Part shown: one piece after another, positions 723 to 53,673 of the stretch
Layout of the letters: the number at the start of each line of letters is the position of its first letter
Numbering within the stretch: the stretch's first letter is position 1
Assembly (NCBI GenBank): GCA_028293625.1
Contig: JAQGOL010000035.1
Location: 1-64,000 of the forward strand
Reading direction: 5' to 3'
Length of the DNA: 64,000 nucleotides
Source: Chthoniobacteraceae bacterium
GTDB lineage: Bacteria; Verrucomicrobiota; Verrucomicrobiia; Chthoniobacterales; Chthoniobacteraceae
Notes under the pieces: model-generated
The model's database searches: none
Told to the model about the DNA's origin: nothing
What the model saw: only the letters and a program-made list of their open reading frames with translations
Made by a program: the position numbers and the translations under genes

Positions 723-1213
723 TTGGCAGGCCGCCGCTGGGACGCCTCAAGTGAAGAGTTACTGCACGACCGCGGCACGTCTGCCGAGGTTGGAAGGGCT
801 TCTTTGGCGGCCACCCTTGGACCGGTTAGTTCAGTTAACTACAATCCGGCCGGTTGGGCGCGTCGTTGCAATAAAGTCTCTGTCCCTGATCCGCAGACTT
901 CCCTGATCCGCAGACTGAAGTGCCGCCTCCCGATCCGCAAACTGTCCCCGTGCTTTTAGCCGACTTTTTCGGGAACGGCCAGCCGGAGCTCACCTGCAAA
1001 AAGGGGCCGTTTCAGGGATACGATGTCCGGCTGCGGCGGCCCGGCCAGGAGACAAGGCACATCGGTTTTTCACTCGCCCGCAATTACCGCGTGGAAGAAC
1101 CGCGACCGACACCCGGCACCGCGGAGATCTGGACGTTTGAAGTGCAATACCGCTATCAGAACGCGCCATTCGGGCAGAAAAGCCAGCCGCTCAGCCTGAC
1201 TGTCCGCGGATAG
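723..1213 (+). pseudogene. Frameshifted remnant of a PVC fibronectin-like small protein
   Basis: The last about 90 residues (from 920) look like the C-terminal part of a family of about 230-residue Verrucomicrobiota proteins with an Fn3-like end. The segments KKGPFQGYDVRLRRPGQ and EIWTFEVQYRYQNAPFGQKS are typical as I recall them, without a database check. No start codon in good context precedes it, and its frame meets a stop at 887-889. A 17-bp unit, TCCCTGATCCGCAGACT, occurs twice back to back (883-899 and 900-916). Removing one copy joins the frame starting at TTG 723 to the frame of 917-1213. A third, degenerate copy is at 928-943. The recognisable fold is therefore probably not expressed. 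Whether 723-880 was ever coding is uncertain. Confidence 0.5.
883..943 (+). repeat. 17-bp direct tandem duplication plus degenerate third copy
   Basis: TCCCTGATCCGCAGACT at 883-899 is repeated exactly at 900-916. TCCCGATCCGCAAACT at 928-943 is a degenerate third copy. All three encode PDPQT in one frame. Because 17 is not a multiple of three, the duplication shifts the reading frame of the remnant gene. Confidence 0.85.
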
Positions 1214-44243: not shown

Positions 44244-44741
44244 TTAAAGCTCCTGATAAACGGGAAGTAAAAGGGCCTGAAGTTTGTCGAGGCCATACCG
44301 GTACCGGCTGGCGGCGGTGTTGGCGCTGATTTCCAGGGCGGCTGCGATTTCCGAGAAGGTCATCTGCTCCCAGAGTTTGAGATGCACGACAGCCCGCTGA
44401 TCGGCCGGCAGCCGCGAGAGCGCCATGCCAAGCGCTTCCCCGAAGCCGGCTGCGTCCGGATCGGATGTCCTGGCAAAAAGGATGACTTCATCGACCCGTT
44501 CCACGTAGCCGTCGCGAGTCGTCCGGCGGCGATGCGCGTCGATCACCAGATTATGCGCGAGCCGGATCAGAAAGCCGCGCACGCTCCGGACGCCATCCAG
44601 CAAATCGGGACGGGTGGCCAGTTTAAGAAAGAGTTCCTGGAGGATCTCGTGTGTCTCGCCTTCACTGCGCGTCACGTTAATCAGGAACGCGGAGAGCGCC
44701 TGGGCGTGGGAATCGTAAATGTGGCGAAGATCGAGGGGCAT
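44244..44741 (-). CDS. ECF-type RNA polymerase sigma factor
   Basis: 165 residues from ATG 44741 (MPLDLRHIYDSHAQALSAFL). A long upstream open frame is rejected because it runs through the 42-bp repeats and has no homology. Sigma region 2: LRHIYDSHAQALSAFLINVT, ETHEILQELFLKLATRPDLL, and SVRGFLIRLAHNLVIDAHRR for the -10 contact. Region 4: GMALSRLPADQRAVVHLKLW, and EQMTFSEIAAALEISANTAA followed by SRYRYGLDKL, a helix-turn-helix. It is followed by the one-span small protein and paralogues A and B on the same strand and is divergent from the giant PEP-CTERM gene. Confidence 0.93.
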   Translation of the reverse strand: MPLDLRHIYDSHAQALSAFLINVTRSEGETHEILQELFLKLATRPDLLDGVRSVRGFLIRLAHNLVIDAHRRRTTRDGYVERVDEVILFARTSDPDAAGFGEALGMALSRLPADQRAVVHLKLWEQMTFSEIAAALEISANTAASRYRYGLDKLQALLLPVYQEL

Positions 44742-45249
44742 CGTTTCAATAGGAAGACGAGCGACTCCCCGGATTTTGTCTACCCTCTCCACAGAGAACG
44801 AAAATTTATCCGCGGTTTTTTTGAATGAAGAAACCGAAGCCGACGAAACTGGCTTACTTTGGCCAAATCCAACGCCTCCTGGACTGTATAAAAAGCTCCG
44901 GCAAGGCTCCCCGGACGCCGGAGGAGCGTTGCCACAGCTTTGGCAACCGATCGCCGGCGGCGGAGGTGGGTTGCCACACTTTCGGGAACGCGCCTCCGGC
45001 TTCGCAGGTGGGTTGCCACAGCTTCGCAAGCCCTTTCACCTCGGCGGACACGCAAGGTAAATGCATCCGGCTGAAGGTCCGTTTACTCTCTATGGATTTC
45101 TCGTTAGTGATATGGCTACGGCGGACACTCGCGCCGGAATCACGTCCACCGCTCTTCCAATACTAAACGGCTTTTGTACAAAATGAGTGCAACAGGATAC
45201 CGCCGCTGCTTGCGAAACCAGGGTTGACGCTTATCGTGCCCCCTTTTTT
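44742..45249. other. Divergent control region between ECF sigma and giant PEP-CTERM gene
   Basis: 508 bp without a supported gene. It holds the three 42-bp repeats (44915-45040), a perfect 12-bp palindrome TTTTGTACAAAA (45172-45183, 66 bases before the giant gene's ATG), and an A+T-rich stretch on the left (44810-44830). Both flanking genes must be controlled from here. No consensus promoter pair is evident. Confidence 0.55.
44915..45040. repeat. Three tandem 42-bp repeats with a GTTGCCA/TGGCAAC dyad
   Basis: GTTGCCACA begins at 44928, 44970 and 45012, exactly 42 bases apart; units share the G+C-rich part around it (CGGAGGTGGGTTGCCAC pattern). Copy 1 (44928-44947) is GTTGCCA-CAGCTT-TGGCAAC, a perfect 7+6+7 dyad. 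Copies 2 and 3 keep the left arm, and their right arms are decayed. The three fill the region upstream of the sigma start and downstream of nothing coding. Confidence 0.85.
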
Positions 45250-48200
45250 ATGCGTCCTCCCTCCAGACCTCCTGTCTTGTCTCTGCGAGTCGCCGTTGCC
45301 TGCATTGCCTGTGTTGCTTCGGTATCCGCGGCGGAGGAAGTCTGGGTCGGAGCCGGGCTCTGGAGCAAAAATTCCAACTGGCTTGACGGCAGCGCGCCGT
45401 TGTTTGGGGTCGATCCGACGCTGGCATTGCGGTTTACAGCGTCCGGGGCAAGCCCGACGATAGCGTCCAATGATCTGGGCTCACAGTTCCCTGTGAATCG
45501 ACTGATTCTGGAGAGCGATTCCTCCGCCAGTTTCACCATCGCCGGCAACCCGATCAAGCTTACCGGCAACAATCCGGTTATTGAGATTGCCGGACTTGGC
45601 GACACGACGATCAGCACTGGTTTGACGCCCGGGCCGGCCGCGGGAACAACCACGATCACCGGCACGGGTCTGGGCAATTTGATTCTCACCGGCAACCTTG
45701 GGCAAACCGGGACGCAATCGGTGACAATCGCCGGGCAAAGCGCTTCTTTGCACACGCAGTTCATCACCTTGCAAAACTCTTTTGCTCCAAGCGGCGGCTT
45801 CACTTTGCAGTCCGGCAATCTGGTCCTGAGTTCGTTTGCAAGCAGCTTGGGGACCGGCCCCCTGGCGGTCAAGGGAGGCAATCTTCGCTTTACCCTTTTC
45901 GGGCAGACTTTCGGAAACACCATTTCCCTGAGCGACAATCTTCTTATCCTTGGAGTTAACAACTCGACCCTCAGCGGAGTGATCTCAAGCGCGGTGGCGG
46001 GATCGGGATTGATTCTACGGCCCGCGGGGGGCGGCATGCTCACGCTCACCGGTGTTTCGACCTACAACGGTGCCACGGTCATCGATTACGGTTCCACTTC
46101 CATTATACCGTATTCCATTGCGTCGACCCTTCGCTTAAACGGTTCCGCATCGGTGCTTAACAGTTCGCGATTTGATATCCGCGGAGGAGGCACTCTCCAG
46201 ATTGACGCCCTTTCAGCCGGAACCACCAATCGGCTTGGCGATTCCGCACCAGTTGCCCTCAGCAACGGCACACTGAGCTTTAACGCCGTCATCGGTTCAA
46301 CTCCGCAGACTGAGACCATCGGGGCGGTGACCGTAACCGGTTATTCGACCCTGAGTGTCGTTGCCGCGAGCGCTGTCAATGCACGGCTCACGGTGGCCTT
46401 GCTTGCGCGGCAGGATCGCGGCACGCTGCTGGCTCGCGGGACGAATCTGGGCGCTGCTTTTGCCGCCAATACCGCAAATGCGCTGTTTACTTCGCTACCA
46501 GCGGGACTTGTCGGCGGCGGAGGAAGCGGCGCTGATGTGAGCATCCTGCCGTGGATAATCGGCGATACCAGCGCCACCGGAACCGGCTCAGGGTTTGTCA
46601 CTTACGATCCCGGCACCGGCCTGCGCCCGCTGAACTTGGCGACTGAATACAGCTCCACGCTGCCCGGCGCCGCCGTGACCCATAACGTCCGTCTCGCCAC
46701 CACACTCACTCACAGCGCGCCGAACACGGTGATCAATGCGCTGGCACTCACGGGCGGCTCACTGCTGGGCAACGGTTCCCTGAATATCACTTCGGGTGCG
46801 GTGCTGAATACCACCAGCGGCGCGCTCATTGAGAACGCGCTCAAATTCGGGAGCGCGGAAGGAATCGTATTTGCCGTGGGCGACCTCACCGTCAGTGGAA
46901 CGATCTCCGGCAGCGGTGGCCTGACCAAATCCGGGGCCGGGAATCTCACCCTGACTTCCAACAATGGTTTTACCGGACCGCTGACCATCAACGCGGGCCT
47001 GATTAGCTTCAACGCGCCTGGCCAGCTCGGGGCCGATTCTTCGGCGATCGCACTCAATGGCCACAACGCGGGGCTCAATTTCACCGGTGCCACGGCGACG
47101 CTCGGGCGCAACCTGGTGATTCCTGAAGCGATCGCACGGTTGCAGGCCAATGGCGGAACGCTGGAGATTTCCGGGACGATCAGCGGGGCGGGCGGACTGC
47201 GCTTAAACAGCGGAGTCACTTCCACCATCAGGTTGACTGGGAATAACACTTTTGCCGGACCGATTTTTCTCACCGGAGGTGAAACCGCGATCACTTCCGA
47301 TGCGTCACTGGGCAACGGAGGCGATCTGAACTTCGGCGGCGGCACACTTCGCCTGCTCGCACCTTGGACTTCAAGCCGGGCGATCCGCGTCAATAGTTTC
47401 GCCACAATCAATACGGACGGTTTTGATGCGACCTGGAATGGACTGCTGCTTGGCTCTTCTTCCCTGACAAAAATCGGGAATGGGACCCTGACGATCACCG
47501 GGGAAAGCCCATTTTCGGGCGCGCTCACGGTGGCCGGCGGAACCGTGCGATTGAGTGGCGCATCCTTGTTAAAAAGTTCAGATATCGCAGCCGTCACCGG
47601 AGGCCGGCTGTTGCTTGACTACAGCGAGACTCCTTTCGGCAACCACGTTAATGACGGGGTGCCGGTCACTCTCAAAGGTGGCGAGCTGGTGATTGCCGGC
47701 AATCCCGGAACCAATGTGTCCAAAGCGCTCGCCGCGATTGTGATCGGGGCCGGCAGGACAGGGACCGGCACGCTGACACTGATACCGGCTGGCAATACTG
47801 GCACTGTGATGCGGCTCGGCACCCTCACCCTGAATGGCGGCGAAGTCGTGATCCGCGGTGACGCGCTCAGCGGCGCGGCTGGCGGCGCTTTTTCCCGTGT
47901 GGTCCTTGCGAATCCGCCGGCTCTGGTGGGCGGTTTGCTGCCGGACGTTTATACCGCTGATTCGGCCACTGGAATCGCAAGTTCTTTTGCCGTTTACGAT
48001 TCTTCAGTTGATTCGGCCGGTGTGGTGGGGATTCGGCCTTTAAGGGATTATGTCACCGGCTCAATCATTCCGGCCAACGGCGGCACAATAAACGTGCTCG
48101 CCGGGGCCGGGACAACCATTTCGGGCTCCGCTGTTACCATCAACAGCCTGACGATTGAAAACGGCGGAAGCGTTTCCATTTCCCCCGGCCAAACCCTTCA

Positions 48201-51200
48201 AGTTTCAACGGGAGCGATTCTCGCCCGCGCGGGAGCGGCTGTCACCACGGTCAATGGCGGAACGCTCGAATTCGGCGCCGCCACCGGCACATTTGCCACG
48301 TTCGGCGATCTCACCGTTTCAAGCGTCCTCTCCGGCATGGGTGGAATCAAAAAATCCGGCCCGGGAACGCTGACCCTTTCGGGCGCCGCAGCCTACGGCG
48401 GCGCGACGACGATCAATTCGGGCGTGCTGCGCATCGGCTCCGGCTCGCTCTTCGCGGACCGTATCGTGACGGTGAATTCCGGAGGCGTATTTGATCTGAA
48501 CGGCGCATCCACGGCGCTTGGCGGGTTGAGCGGCACGGGCTCGGTGTTGTTGGGGGCCAGCACTCTGACTTTGGGGACACTTGGGGTGGACATGCAGTTC
48601 GATGGAATGTTCACCGGGTCGGGGACGATCGATATTGTCGATGGCGGCAACCCGCTGGCGGTGAGGCAACTCTTTGGCTTCACTTCATTTGCCGGGCAAA
48701 TGCGGTTGACCTCCGGGCGGCTTGTCATCTCAGGTGCGTTGCTTTCTTCAGGCACGCTGACGGTGAATGGGGGCTCGATCATGTCCGGGTACGCCTCCAA
48801 TAACGTCATCCTGAATACCAATCTGCGGATTGATGGGGAGTCTTCTTTCACGCTCGCCGGACCTGGCACGCTCACGGGCGCGCATGATGTTTTGTTACAA
48901 GGCAGGGGCGGTTTGACCATTCAATCCGCCGCGGCGCACACCGGCGAAACGCGTTCCACATTCGGCATGGCGGAGCTGCCTTCTTATCCCAGCGGTGCAA
49001 TCACCCTCAACGGTGCGGGCGGGACGCTTACCGTCACCTCCGCCATCCGTATCGCGCCCGGCAGCGCGCTGATCCTCGATGATTCAATCGCCTTTTCCGG
49101 CGGACTCGGCGGCCGGATTCCGGACACAACGCCCGTTTACCTGAGCAGTGCTTCCATGCGGCTGACCGGCAACGCAAGCAATGCGACCACGGAAAACATT
49201 GGTGTGTTGCACGGCAGCGGCTACAACACACTGACGGTGGCACCGGGCGCCGGCGCCATCGCCCGCCTCACGGCGGCCAGCCTTGCTCGCGACGAGCGCG
49301 GCACGTTTTTATTCCTCGCTCCCGGACTGGGCTCGGCGCCTGCAAATGGGATCGGCGCCATTACTTTTTCCACCAGTCTCGCCGCGGACCTCGTGGGCGA
49401 CGCGGGCAGCGGACCCGAGATCAGCATCCTTCCTTACGCCATTGGGGAAACAGCGCTCACCGGCTACGGATCCGGTCTGGTCACGTACGATGCGGCACGC
49501 GGAATCCGCCTGCTGGACACGGCTACCGAATATGCCGCCACGCTTGAAGCGGCCACCTCAACGAGCAATGTGCGGCTCACTGCCGGCGCGGTGGTGAATG
49601 TGCCGCGCACCATCAATTCCCTGGTCATCAGCGGCGGCGCAATCACTGGAAGCGGCACTCTTTCAGTCATCAGCGGCACCATATTAAAGAGCAGCTTTGA
49701 GGGTTTCAGCGTCTCGGTGGACGCGAATCTTGCCTTTGGAGCCGCCGAGGCAAACATCTTTGTGCCCAACAACATTGTGCCTGATTCGACTGCCTCGGGT
49801 GGCCTTTACCTGACCGGGACGCTCAGTGGCACGGGCGGGCTTACCAAATCCGGACAGTACAATCTCATTCTCACGGGAACCAACACGTTCACCGGTCCGA
49901 TCACGATCAACGCCGGGAATCTTCAGTTCAGCTCGATGGCGAATCTCGGAGCGGATACTTCGCCGATTAGAATCAACGCGAGTGTCACCAGCGCCGGGCT
50001 GTTTTACACGGGCTCCGTTCCGCTGGTGCTGACCCGGGGTATTCAGATCCTCGGCGGATACGCCGCTTTAAGAACCGCCAGTGCCACCCTGGAAGTCCCG
50101 GGCACCATCAGTGGGGAGGGCGGCATTGGGATCACAGGATACACTTTTGTAAAACTCTCGGGCGTCAATACATACACCGGACCAACGGTAGTCCAGGGAA
50201 GCCTCGCAATCACCTCCGACGCGGCGCTTGGCAATGGCGGAGCGCTTCAGCTCAAAAACGGCGGATACGACTTGCGGCTGGATGGCCCCTGGACGACCAG
50301 CCGCCGCATCGTGGTCTCGGACCCCTCGGTCATTTCCATCAACGGATTCGAAGCTTTGCTGGGCGGACCGCTTGAAGGCTCCGCGGCGCTTGCCATCAAC
50401 GGGCCGGGCCGCCTGACGCTGACAGGGGCTTCAAACTTCAGCGGCGATCTCTTCACCCAGGCCACGTTGCGCTTTGCTGGTGCCGGCAGCGTGCGCGGCA
50501 GCCGATTCCTGCTTCAGCGGGGAAGCCTGGTGCTGGACAATTCCGCCGCCGTGGTTTCAGACCGGCTCCCGGATAATGCGACCGTGACAAACTACGGCGG
50601 CAGCGTGCAACTGCTCGGAAACGCCACGACGGCAGTCCGGGAAACCATCGGCGCGCTCGTCATTGAGGGCGGCGCCGCCCCAAGCCTCCTGCTGACAGCG
50701 CCCGGCACCACTTCAACCATCCTGGACGCCGCCTCGTATTCCGGGGTCGACAATTTGCCGGCCACCATCCAGGGCGATCAATTGGGCGGATCCTCCGGCG
50801 GTTTTACCCGGCTCACCTTCCGCACGACTCCCATGCTGCGCGGCAGGCTGATGACGGGCACCACCGTGATCGGCGCGGCAACCGGTGCCCCGGAATCCTT
50901 CGCGCTTTACGATACTGCCACCGACGCATCCGGTGTGATTGGAGTGCGCGCATTGAGGCCCGCTGATTACACGGCAACCGCTCTCCTTACGAACCCTTCC
51001 AATGGCGGCGGCACGCCGGTCGACGCGAACTTTCTGGTTGGCGGGAACGTCGCCATGAGCGGTGCGGCCAACACCGTCAACAGTCTTACGTTAAGCGGAG
51101 TCAGCACCGTGACTCTTGGCGCCGGCCAGACGTTAAATGTCTCTTTCCCCTCCATTCTCGCGCAAACCGGCGCCGATGTGGTGTTCAAGGGCGGCCAGCT

Positions 51201-53673
51201 CGTCATGCCCGGCCCGGCGATTTTGGTGGGTAACGGCAGCACTACAATACAAAGCACCCTGACGGCATCCGAACTGCGGAAGCATGGCACGGGTATGTTG
51301 ACCCTAGCTGCCAACAGCTTTAAGGGCGCGCTCCATTCTATTGAAGGGGTCACGCGTTTGGAAGCATCCGGCGCACCGGCCAAGTTCTCCTCCATCCAGG
51401 TGGACTCCGCCGCTTCGATCGACTTGAACGGAATAAATACAGAGGCCGATGGTGTCTCCGTGGATGGGACGCTTGCACTGGGAAGCGCGACCCTTGTGAC
51501 AGGGAGCGCCTTCATTCCCGGCACCATCACGGGAACCGGCGGCCTTGTGCTTCGTTCGACAAACACGGGCAATTCAGCGCATATCGTTTCGGTTTCCGGG
51601 ACGCTCGCCTATTCAGGAACGACGGTGCTTGAGCGCGATCCGGTTCATGGCGCCGACCTGGGCGCCACGCTCATTTTTACCGGCAATGGAACCGCGCTGG
51701 CAACCAGCGGCTTTATGCTTTCGGGGAAAAGCTCCATGCGCCTGGACAATAATGATGTGTTCAACGCGCCGGGAATCCCGCGTATCGCAGGCACGGCGCC
51801 GGTGACCCTCAACGGAAGCACTTTCTACCTGCGAGGCAGCGCTTCCAGCGCTGTGCAGCAAAATGCCGGCACGCTCACGGGAACAGGGTTCTCGATCGTG
51901 CAGATGGAATCAGCCGGCGCGCAATCGACCCGGCTCAACTTCGCCCGGTTGATCCGCTCGGAGCGCGGCACCTTCGGTTTCAGCGGCATCACGGGAAACG
52001 CGCCAGGCGCGGGGATCAACAACCTGTTCTTCGACGCGGGCGTGGCGTTGATCGGGACCGGCACGGGTGCCACGGACGCGCCAATCCTCCCGTATGCTGT
52101 CCATAACCTCAATGGTTACACCGGCAATCCCAGACCCACGCTGGTTACTTACACTTCAGCCAATGGCATCCGTCCCCTCGGCATCGACACGGAATATGCG
52201 CCGACGCTTTCGGCCGGCCAGAATGTGCGGCTGACCGCCGCCGCGATCCTCGATACGCCGGTCACCATCAACAGCCTCGTGCTCGACCAGGGCTCAATCA
52301 GCGGCACCGGCAGGATCACCGTGACAAGCGGCACCGTGCTGAACAGCGGGTTGTATAAAGTCATCGCCAATCCGCTCGAGTTCGGAAATGTGGAAGCGAA
52401 TCTTTTTTGCGCTGAAGGCGAATTGCGGCTCGCCGGACCGGTTTCCGGGACCGGCGGGATCACCGTCACAGGCACCAACACCGTGCCGTATTTTGGAAAT
52501 CAAGTGGTCGCGCTCTCGGGGAGCAATTCCTTTACCGGGCCGATTACGGTCAATGCGGGACGCCTGCGTGTTGAGACGCCGGCCGGCTTCGGCCCGGATA
52601 CAGGCGAAATCATCCTGAACGATGCCGTGCTGGAATACGGCGGCACCATCGGTTTTCCAACGATGTTTACTTTAAACAGGCCCGTGCGGCTTAACGGCAC
52701 AGAGGGAGCCATCGCGGGCAACACCGATCAGTTCACCATGGCGGGCGTGGTTTCGGGAACCGCCGGCCTGCGCATTGAAGGGGTGGTGACGCTCACCGGC
52801 GCCAACACTTACTCGGGTCCTACAAACGTTGTTGGCGCTTTGTCCTTCGCCTCCGATGCCGCCCTTGGCAGAGGCGGCGCGATTCGCTTCAGCGGAACAA
52901 ACGGTTCTGTAAAACTCCTGGCGCCCTGGGTGACCGATCACACGGTGCAATTCGACGGCACAGGCTATGTGAATACCAATGGCTTCGATGCGCGGATCAG
53001 AGGAAGCGTGAGCGGATCCAATAACAGCACCTTTGTGAAAACGGGCGATGGCACGCTCTGGATTGAGGATGCAAACGCGCTCGCATCGCGGATCAGCGTT
53101 TCCGGCGGGACTTTGGCCCTGAAAGGAACCCTCGCCAATGGCTTCGGGGTTTACGTAAGCGCCGGTGCGACCCTGACCGGCGACGTCGATCTTTCGCAGG
53201 CGATCAACGTCAACGGCACGCTCGCCCCGGGCAGCGGACCGGGCACGATGAAGACCCGCGACCTCACCTTTAGCAACGCCACCCTCGCCATTGAACTCGC
53301 TTCGCCGAGTCTCTTTGACCGAATCGTTGTCACCGGGGGCGTCATTCTGAATGGAACCACCAATCTGACTCTTTCCCTCGACTATGATCCGCAGGATAAA
53401 GTTGATTCATTCGTCATCCTTGAAAACGACGGGACCGATCCGTTGATCTCTGCCGGGTTGGGCCGGTTCGCCTTTGGAGGCAGCGTGCTCGATGAAGGCA
53501 CCCGCTTTATGGCCGGCACCCAGGAGTTTATCTTCAGTTACACGGGAGGCGATGGCAACGACGCCACTCTCTACGCCGTCCCGGAGCCTGGCACCGCACT
53601 GTTGCTGCTCGCGGCGGCCCTGCCCGTCCTGGCGTGCCGCTCGCGCCGCGGAACCAAAAGCCGGCGGCGTTAA
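45250..53673 (+). CDS. Giant autotransporter-type beta-strand-repeat protein with PEP-CTERM tail
   Basis: 2807 residues from ATG 45250 (MRPPSRPPVLSLRVAVACIA), a signal peptide ending near SVSAAEE. The bulk is a right-handed beta helix of autotransporter-associated strands: GTISGSGGLTKSGAGNLTLT, NTFTGPITINAGNL, GTISGAGGL and many variants. Three similar super-modules (about 46150-47570, 49040-50500, 51712-53125) share RGTxL, ILPxxIG, GIRxLxxxTEYxxTL and ITSDAxLGNGG blocks. They alternate with a second module type at 47570 and 50500 (RGDALSGAAGGAFSRVVLA and FAVYDSSVDSAGVVGIRPL, and variants). The C-terminus is a PEP-CTERM sorting signal: PEPGT, a hydrophobic segment ALLLLAAALPVLA, then RSRRG. 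A likely exosortase substrate anchored or released at the cell surface. Confidence 0.93.
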   Translation: MRPPSRPPVLSLRVAVACIACVASVSAAEEVWVGAGLWSKNSNWLDGSAPLFGVDPTLALRFTASGASPTIASNDLGSQFPVNRLILESDSSASFTIAGNPIKLTGNNPVIEIAGLGDTTISTGLTPGPAAGTTTITGTGLGNLILTGNLGQTGTQSVTIAGQSASLHTQFITLQNSFAPSGGFTLQSGNLVLSSFASSLGTGPLAVKGGNLRFTLFGQTFGNTISLSDNLLILGVNNSTLSGVISSAVAGSGLILRPAGGGMLTLTGVSTYNGATVIDYGSTSIIPYSIASTLRLNGSASVLNSSRFDIRGGGTLQIDALSAGTTNRLGDSAPVALSNGTLSFNAVIGSTPQTETIGAVTVTGYSTLSVVAASAVNARLTVALLARQDRGTLLARGTNLGAAFAANTANALFTSLPAGLVGGGGSGADVSILPWIIGDTSATGTGSGFVTYDPGTGLRPLNLATEYSSTLPGAAVTHNVRLATTLTHSAPNTVINALALTGGSLLGNGSLNITSGAVLNTTSGALIENALKFGSAEGIVFAVGDLTVSGTISGSGGLTKSGAGNLTLTSNNGFTGPLTINAGLISFNAPGQLGADSSAIALNGHNAGLNFTGATATLGRNLVIPEAIARLQANGGTLEISGTISGAGGLRLNSGVTSTIRLTGNNTFAGPIFLTGGETAITSDASLGNGGDLNFGGGTLRLLAPWTSSRAIRVNSFATINTDGFDATWNGLLLGSSSLTKIGNGTLTITGESPFSGALTVAGGTVRLSGASLLKSSDIAAVTGGRLLLDYSETPFGNHVNDGVPVTLKGGELVIAGNPGTNVSKALAAIVIGAGRTGTGTLTLIPAGNTGTVMRLGTLTLNGGEVVIRGDALSGAAGGAFSRVVLANPPALVGGLLPDVYTADSATGIASSFAVYDSSVDSAGVVGIRPLRDYVTGSIIPANGGTINVLAGAGTTISGSAVTINSLTIENGGSVSISPGQTLQVSTGAILARAGAAVTTVNGGTLEFGAATGTFATFGDLTVSSVLSGMGGIKKSGPGTLTLSGAAAYGGATTINSGVLRIGSGSLFADRIVTVNSGGVFDLNGASTALGGLSGTGSVLLGASTLTLGTLGVDMQFDGMFTGSGTIDIVDGGNPLAVRQLFGFTSFAGQMRLTSGRLVISGALLSSGTLTVNGGSIMSGYASNNVILNTNLRIDGESSFTLAGPGTLTGAHDVLLQGRGGLTIQSAAAHTGETRSTFGMAELPSYPSGAITLNGAGGTLTVTSAIRIAPGSALILDDSIAFSGGLGGRIPDTTPVYLSSASMRLTGNASNATTENIGVLHGSGYNTLTVAPGAGAIARLTAASLARDERGTFLFLAPGLGSAPANGIGAITFSTSLAADLVGDAGSGPEISILPYAIGETALTGYGSGLVTYDAARGIRLLDTATEYAATLEAATSTSNVRLTAGAVVNVPRTINSLVISGGAITGSGTLSVISGTILKSSFEGFSVSVDANLAFGAAEANIFVPNNIVPDSTASGGLYLTGTLSGTGGLTKSGQYNLILTGTNTFTGPITINAGNLQFSSMANLGADTSPIRINASVTSAGLFYTGSVPLVLTRGIQILGGYAALRTASATLEVPGTISGEGGIGITGYTFVKLSGVNTYTGPTVVQGSLAITSDAALGNGGALQLKNGGYDLRLDGPWTTSRRIVVSDPSVISINGFEALLGGPLEGSAALAINGPGRLTLTGASNFSGDLFTQATLRFAGAGSVRGSRFLLQRGSLVLDNSAAVVSDRLPDNATVTNYGGSVQLLGNATTAVRETIGALVIEGGAAPSLLLTAPGTTSTILDAASYSGVDNLPATIQGDQLGGSSGGFTRLTFRTTPMLRGRLMTGTTVIGAATGAPESFALYDTATDASGVIGVRALRPADYTATALLTNPSNGGGTPVDANFLVGGNVAMSGAANTVNSLTLSGVSTVTLGAGQTLNVSFPSILAQTGADVVFKGGQLVMPGPAILVGNGSTTIQSTLTASELRKHGTGMLTLAANSFKGALHSIEGVTRLEASGAPAKFSSIQVDSAASIDLNGINTEADGVSVDGTLALGSATLVTGSAFIPGTITGTGGLVLRSTNTGNSAHIVSVSGTLAYSGTTVLERDPVHGADLGATLIFTGNGTALATSGFMLSGKSSMRLDNNDVFNAPGIPRIAGTAPVTLNGSTFYLRGSASSAVQQNAGTLTGTGFSIVQMESAGAQSTRLNFARLIRSERGTFGFSGITGNAPGAGINNLFFDAGVALIGTGTGATDAPILPYAVHNLNGYTGNPRPTLVTYTSANGIRPLGIDTEYAPTLSAGQNVRLTAAAILDTPVTINSLVLDQGSISGTGRITVTSGTVLNSGLYKVIANPLEFGNVEANLFCAEGELRLAGPVSGTGGITVTGTNTVPYFGNQVVALSGSNSFTGPITVNAGRLRVETPAGFGPDTGEIILNDAVLEYGGTIGFPTMFTLNRPVRLNGTEGAIAGNTDQFTMAGVVSGTAGLRIEGVVTLTGANTYSGPTNVVGALSFASDAALGRGGAIRFSGTNGSVKLLAPWVTDHTVQFDGTGYVNTNGFDARIRGSVSGSNNSTFVKTGDGTLWIEDANALASRISVSGGTLALKGTLANGFGVYVSAGATLTGDVDLSQAINVNGTLAPGSGPGTMKTRDLTFSNATLAIELASPSLFDRIVVTGGVILNGTTNLTLSLDYDPQDKVDSFVILENDGTDPLISAGLGRFAFGGSVLDEGTRFMAGTQEFIFSYTGGDGNDATLYAVPEPGTALLLLAAALPVLACRSRRGTKSRRR
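46150..53125 (+). repeat. Alternating A-B-A-B-A super-modules within the giant protein gene
   Basis: A modules at about 46150-47570, 49040-50500 and 51712-53125 each encode about 475 residues; B modules begin at 47570 and 50500. The protein blocks are alike, but the DNA has drifted, so the expansion is older than the Ig array in the window. Confidence 0.7.

Follow-up and report, generated by a model that had tools for sequence, protein, structure and literature searches.

A 42-bp tandem array between an ECF sigma factor gene and a giant surface protein gene of a Chthoniobacteraceae bacterium shares its layout with arrays that precede one family of unnamed genes

Phased operator arrays and plasmid iterons consist of direct repeats placed at whole helical turns before a gene which possibly encodes the binder, usually with one site sequence per regulator and with units of about 20 to 22 bp. 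The REP and BIME elements, as they are presented in excerpts of two papers, are short intergenic palindromes which are sometimes clustered, and those associated with RAYT carry a GTAG (or CGTC) tag at one palindrome end (PMC3733652, PMC8266576). The BrickBuilt elements of Porphyromonas gingivalis are described in the excerpted text of PMC4596501 as intergenic tandem repeats of one species, with degenerate units of 23 nt which form one unit family at 19 loci, and with a leader and a tail that have inverted-repeat ends.

The array analyzed here lies in a window of 64,000 nucleotides, by which we mean the whole stretch of DNA under study. Together with the arrays related to it by layout, it is similar to the phased operators and iterons in that direct repeats stand at whole helical turns before a gene; that gene may encode the binder, as in those systems. 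Here, however, what is kept is the 42-bp period, the sequence being variable, and any binder is hypothetical. The arrays share with REP and BIME elements their palindromic and intergenic nature, while the key differences are that they are untagged, were found as two arrays in this genome, are not seen beside the RAYT fragment of the window where its flank is visible, and are tied to an unrelated gene family. They also share with BrickBuilt the intergenic tandem repetition, the leader, the degenerate units and the fact of being known from one species, and are distinguished from it by a 42-bp period, by units which are mostly locus-specific, by the position before one gene family, and by ends at which no inverted repeat was noticed. 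The features of the window are as follows.

44244 to 44741, minus strand: ECF sigma factor gene (Pfam Sigma70_r2/r4; start taken at 44741)
44756 to 44782, minus strand: TAGACAAAA-N13-TCGTC, candidate ECF promoter through which the sigma gene would regulate itself, separate from the array
44885 to 44894, plus strand: leader TGTATAAAAA, -10-like, common to the window array and the second array on contig C3
44900 to 44941, plus strand: 42-bp unit W0
44942 to 44983, plus strand: 42-bp unit W1
44984 to 45025, plus strand: 42-bp unit W2
44928 to 44947, no strand: perfect 7+6+7 dyad over the W0/W1 junction
45250 to 53673, plus strand: giant PATR autotransporter-type gene (2807 aa, 224 bp beyond the array; the start is assumed at ATG 45250, and the reading frame opens at GTG 45187)

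The three units occupy positions 44900-45025, and it is the whole 42-bp unit that is repeated in tandem. TRF reported the array at 44899-45024 with 3.0 copies, and its score of 129 tops the 13 rows returned for the 64 kb. The identity at a lag of 42 was 0.63, in comparison to a maximum of 0.51 in 1000 dinucleotide shuffles and to 0.53 for the next-best 143-bp stretch of the window at lags 20-69, and the array is thus genuine. On the plus strand of the window, GTTGCCACA was found at positions 44928, 44970 and 45012 only, and GTTGCCAC has one occurrence besides those in the array units, at 2222. These results agree with an earlier note on this DNA, which had described a unit recurring at the three positions with exact 42-base spacing, one copy being a perfect 7+6+7 dyad, between an ECF sigma gene (minus strand) and the gene of a giant surface protein (plus strand). 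The dyad reads GTTGCCA-CAGCTT-TGGCAAC and is perfect at the first unit junction only, and the window consensus unit GGCAACGCGCCTCCGGCGCCGGAGGTGGGTTGCCACAGCTTT gave a 14-pair hairpin when folded. The leader TGTATAAAAA, absent from the earlier description, also belongs to the array.

A search of the genome for the unit, which the same note had proposed, found a second array at G000:C3 with a leader and three units of 42 bp, so that the array is not single-copy. BLAST of the window array against the 6.83-Mb genome returned C3:64305-64344 with an E value of 1.3e-5, and a non-circular model, built from the window units alone, found the C3 array with an E value of 7.5e-8 in 884 kb of this genome. 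The two arrays are 66% identical across 132 positions in an ungapped alignment. Their units are not position-matched (85-89 matches for each pairing). At the GTTGCCAC core the two arrays agree in 23 of 24 positions, in comparison to 62 of 102 elsewhere (Fisher p 0.0004), a core which was picked after inspection and for which a best-8-column test that allows for the choice gave p 0.04. No third array was found in this genome by BLAST or by two models among the best-scored candidates, and none further in the 884 kb; the genome search with model R1 scored the best 112 of 2597 first-look candidates, and weak single units could escape it. At C3 a histidine kinase gene (HisKA_3) ends shortly before the array begins, and 176 nt beyond the array comes a gene for a 241-aa protein whose family is unnamed. 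The promoter scan reported no sigma-70-type promoter at either array. A terminator on the minus strand, where the leader's TTTTTATACA follows the hairpins, was considered and set aside: the terminator scan reported none of this kind at the window array and one at C3, with the T run after CCGTAC.

The C3 protein was then used as query against 38 genomes and gave 10 matches, namely the protein itself, six near-full-length homologues and three partial or weak matches. The six homologues, with E values of 1e-27 to 6e-17, belong to two other genera, one being from genome G025 and five from genome G013. All six have a 42-bp array upstream (one was reported as 84-bp), at distances of 76, 59, 177, 35, 138 and 140 nt from the start codon, and the array therefore precedes the gene at 7 of 7 near-full-length family genes when C3 is included, five of the seven being in G013 and two of these being close paralogues. 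Two truncated family genes which lack the N-terminal part (L137 and L143) have no array, and the third partial match covers 26 residues on contig C26 of this genome. In the window the leader and the array are present and the family gene is absent, its place in the other modules being taken here by the giant PATR gene. In 1.68 Mb of comparison sequence (this genome, G018, G025, G028 and G011; G053 was left out, having been picked for an array), TRF found two period-42 arrays with at least 2.8 copies, which were the window array and one in G025. Because such arrays are rare there yet precede all six homologues, the association between array and gene family is solid and greatly exceeds chance, although one genome holds five of the seven loci.

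The family proteins are 241 to 357 aa long with 20 invariant columns across the seven sequences, and the C3 protein is without the C-terminal part. No match at E ≤0.001 was obtained from Pfam and NCBIfam for 6 of 7 family members scanned or from PHROGs and PADLOC for 4 of 7, and no DNA-binding domain was recognised. Only hints come from one member with a weak C-terminal signal for fibronectin type III (E 0.069) and from weak matches to coiled coils in PDB sequences (E 0.12 and above). The member at L182 was absent from the plasmid and phage records searched. An A/C-rich stretch was seen by eye immediately before the start codon at several family genes.

The results showed that it is the spacing which stays constant across the eight arrays. 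All 29 of the unit-to-unit steps tested were best at a lag of 42 among the lags 36-48 compared, which corresponds to whole helical turns (42/10.5 = 4.0), the spacing of a phased operator array. Units from different loci are mostly unrelated in sequence, and only 4 of 28 array pairs exceeded all 200 shuffles (window-C3, L186-L187, L182-L183 and L183-L184). The leader TGTATAAA is found at five arrays (window, C3, L185, L186 and L187) and is absent at L182, L183 and L184; in 884 kb of this genome it has 8 occurrences in total on both strands, and TGTATAAAAAGCT is common to the window leader and the L185 array of another genus. The dyad of the consensus unit beat at least 98 of 100 shuffles at the window, C3, L182 and L183 arrays and was no better than shuffles at the remaining four. 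CCGGA/TCCGG half-sites occur in 7 of the 8 arrays and exceed all 200 shuffles in five, a test which is inflated by the repetition within arrays.

Periods in multiples of 21 bp are frequent in some genomes and not general. The fraction of TRF arrays with a period of 21, 42 or 63 bp was 5 of 5 in G025, a sample not chosen for arrays, 1 of 6 in G018, 1 of 6 in this genome (the window array), and 3 of 7 in G053, which was chosen for such an array, while no TRF arrays were found in G028 and G011. The five G025 arrays (L363 8374-8660, L364 16845-17054, L372 3963-4090, L370 4660-4790 and L368 7101-7247) are degenerate and almost indel-free, each has a different sequence, and no family gene was found beside them. 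In genome G010, a different kind of gene, of 148 aa, is preceded at a distance of about 109 bp by a 42-bp array of 4.9 copies (L161 2480-2684).

The sequence of the array, as distinct from its layout, does not appear to be credibly present outside this genome. Searches of plasmids (BLAST and tblastn) and phages (BLAST) gave no match, and in viral contigs no relative came from two pattern scans or from two protein scans (tblastn). The first viral pattern scan yielded 6 stretches, which were rescored with 48 genome-contig stretches to a best R1 E value of 0.22, and the second yielded 85, of which 80 were rescored and none reached E 0.5 or better. In a scan of 387 genomes of the phylum a GTTGCCAC pair was present in 28, this genome included, and a single pair at spacing 42 was present in two other genomes (G144 and G363); a scan of 40 genomes of the family gave one other genome with a single pair. 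R1 had two weak matches among 56 relatives (G002 and G043), with no tandem repeat by eye. Within the order, 212 other genomes were searched with model R2, and 16 of them gave 17 weak matches. Fourteen of these 17 were checked for lag 42, and only L312 was repetitive, with a 21-bp array of unrelated letters which was not counted as a relative of the window unit. The scan of genome contigs (48 stretches, of which the genomes behind 11 were read) gave 21- and 42-bp GTTGCCAC arrays in distant bacteria, and their interpretation as homology across phyla was rejected as ascertainment because the scan pattern had selected both the 8-mer and the spacing. These tandem arrays (L054, L065, L066, L052, L053, L059, L076, L039 and L062), selected by that pattern, were judged non-coding by eye and have a spacing of mostly 21 or 42 bp, which is variable in the deltaproteobacterial genome behind L062. 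Since the layout recurs, the array is not an isolated locus without conservation, though its sequence was not found beyond this genome. Neither these arrays nor the gene family was described in the titles and abstract beginnings of the open-licence literature searched, and the recurrent layout to which the array belongs did not come up there.

At the start of the contig, positions 3-557 of the window (plus strand) hold a C-terminal fragment of a REP-associated tyrosine transposase, which scored 20 bits with NCBIfam REP_Tyr_transpos, where the cut-off is 80. In its 3' flank there is a 17-bp tandem TCCCTGATCCGCAGACT at 883-916, and a resembling repeat, TGTCCCTGATTCC, is found on C3 (L114). Beside the fragment, a protein represented by its C-terminal half is encoded at positions 890-1213 (plus strand). 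It is related to the 228-aa L312 protein (35% over 94 residues), and at L312 the 228-aa gene is intact with the 21-bp array 75 nt upstream. Proteins of the L312 type were rejected as members of the C3 family by a profile comparison with a probability of 0.3%.

Of the 38 genomes searched, 36 gave matches to the sigma gene. The 42-bp array was absent upstream of sigma in all 8 orthologues read and in the paralogue of this genome, and the neighbour upstream of the sigma gene differs among the loci read. In seven orthologues (one with a spacer of 12), as in this genome, a slightly variable two-block motif, TAGACAAA-N13-GCGTC, lies near the start of sigma, and TAAACAAAT...GCGTC was recognised by eye in the eighth (L177), while the paralogue of this genome is without the second block. 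The motif looks like an autoregulated ECF promoter and is a candidate for one; in the window it is about 100 bp from the array leader. It is not present ahead of the giant gene on that gene's own strand. The second-best match to the motif in the window, with 17.1 bits in comparison to 22.8, is at 45252-45226 on the minus strand, at the start of the giant gene, and reads toward the array and the sigma gene. A sigma-linked operator was rejected because the eight orthologues have no array and sigma has its own conserved promoter motif, and the array is probably not a part of the ECF sigma control region. The phased regulator array proposed in the earlier note is still the best interpretation, with exact 42-bp steps at eight arrays, and its link to the sigma gene is not supported. 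In the region of the L181 sigma orthologue, single weak model matches 1.8-2.6 kb from sigma (R1 E 0.14; R3 E 0.02) were counted as chance.

The other origin suggested earlier was a RAYT/REP-like repeat family, in which the RAYT now present as a fragment at the window's left edge would have spread REP palindromes. The unit is indeed palindromic and the fragment is present, but the comparison with RAYT palindromes showed no GTAG or CGTC tag at the units, the tag position of the six units reading GAGC, GTGG, GTGG, GCGG, GAAG and ACGG; REP elements are moreover expected in many dispersed copies, whereas two arrays with six units were found in the 6.8-Mb genome, and no unit occurs in the visible 3' flank of the fragment, the 5' part being beyond the contig end. 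This origin is therefore hardly credible. An element of minisatellite type, dispersed and with no binder dedicated to it, self-copying or copied into intergenic sites in the manner of BrickBuilt, deserves more weight and is still doubtful. It would account for two copies in one genome at unrelated loci, for the absence of arrays at the eight orthologous sigma loci and for units which are not position-matched, as slippage would turn the units over and each locus would therefore have its own sequence; an element with a leader, tandem units and intergenic placement has been published (excerpt of PMC4596501), and the window array has these three properties. It leaves unexplained why the array stands before all 7 near-full-length genes of one family and why the spacing stays at 42 though the sequence is replaced, and only two arrays were found in this genome. 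No terminal inverted repeat or target duplication was noticed by eye at the outer ends of the window and C3 arrays, and no inverted pairs were listed in 44600-45400 by a repeat search which also missed the direct repeats of the array.

Two further explanations concern what might be read from the array. As an RNA element, the array would be transcribed from the leader into tandem hairpins, which would work within a 5' untranslated region or make up a small RNA. The plus strand folds far better than shuffles in both copies (z of -7.0 and -4.8, in comparison to -2.7 and -2.5 for the other strand), the window and C3 folds share 26 pairs of 46 and 44, with three double changes that keep the pair, and at 5 of 8 arrays it is the gene strand that folds better. 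Against this, 12 of the 19 window pairs that have changed no longer pair in C3, the covariation pair test on six units was no better than shuffles, the other strand folds equally well or better at 3 of 8 arrays, and there was no Rfam match. The variation of the better-folding strand among loci leans to a role at the DNA level, and we consider the RNA element quite unlikely. Since 42 nt is 14 codons, the repeat might also be coding, either for a small protein or for additional N-terminal residues of the protein downstream. Stop-free frames pass through the window array, the translated window and C3 copies are similar in two frames, and at 3 of 7 family genes the open frame of the gene extends through the array; at the other 4, however, it stops short of the array, and an excess of third-position changes is not clear, the largest share in any frame being 20 of 50 differences, which makes a coding repeat very improbable. 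Because the folding strand varies and neither covariation nor a coding signal is clear, a phased array acting at the DNA level in a promoter-proximal region is favoured, in which the binding, the regulation and the identity of the binder are inferences.

We give a probability of roughly 0.45 to the window array being an orphan copy of an array-plus-gene module with phased, promoter-proximal dyads. The module would comprise a promoter-like leader (G)TGTATAAA, exact 42-bp units, a spacer of 35-177 nt and the family gene. The C3 copy has its gene, and the six homologue loci are alike (with the leader at three), all with exact 42-bp steps. Transcription would start just past the leader, and the array would therefore lie in the promoter-proximal leader region. 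A protein may bind the dyad of each unit, and the bound dimers would stack on one face because 42 bp makes four turns of B-DNA at 10.5 bp per turn; the stacked dimers could then set the expression of the downstream gene. A candidate for the binder is the family protein, in which case each paralogue would read a unit of its own, and in the window the giant surface protein gene would come under a C3-type regulator.

As the spacing is constant while the sequence is replaceable, the module may go further and act as a ruler, with the 42-bp spacing inherited, the unit letters replaceable, the codes specific to paralogues, and a solo array recoding its neighbour gene; this extension is unlikely. Intergenic tandem repeats in bacteria are often dismissed as slippage products. 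A period that is equal across mostly unrelated sequences and tied to one gene family makes selection on the spacing itself testable, for example by 5-bp insertions. The arrays offer a first handle on an uncharacterised gene family which has five copies in one genome. If the ruler module is true, arrays and proteins would form mutually distinct address codes within one genome, and through the solo array of the window the code belonging to the C3 paralogue would extend to the giant surface protein.
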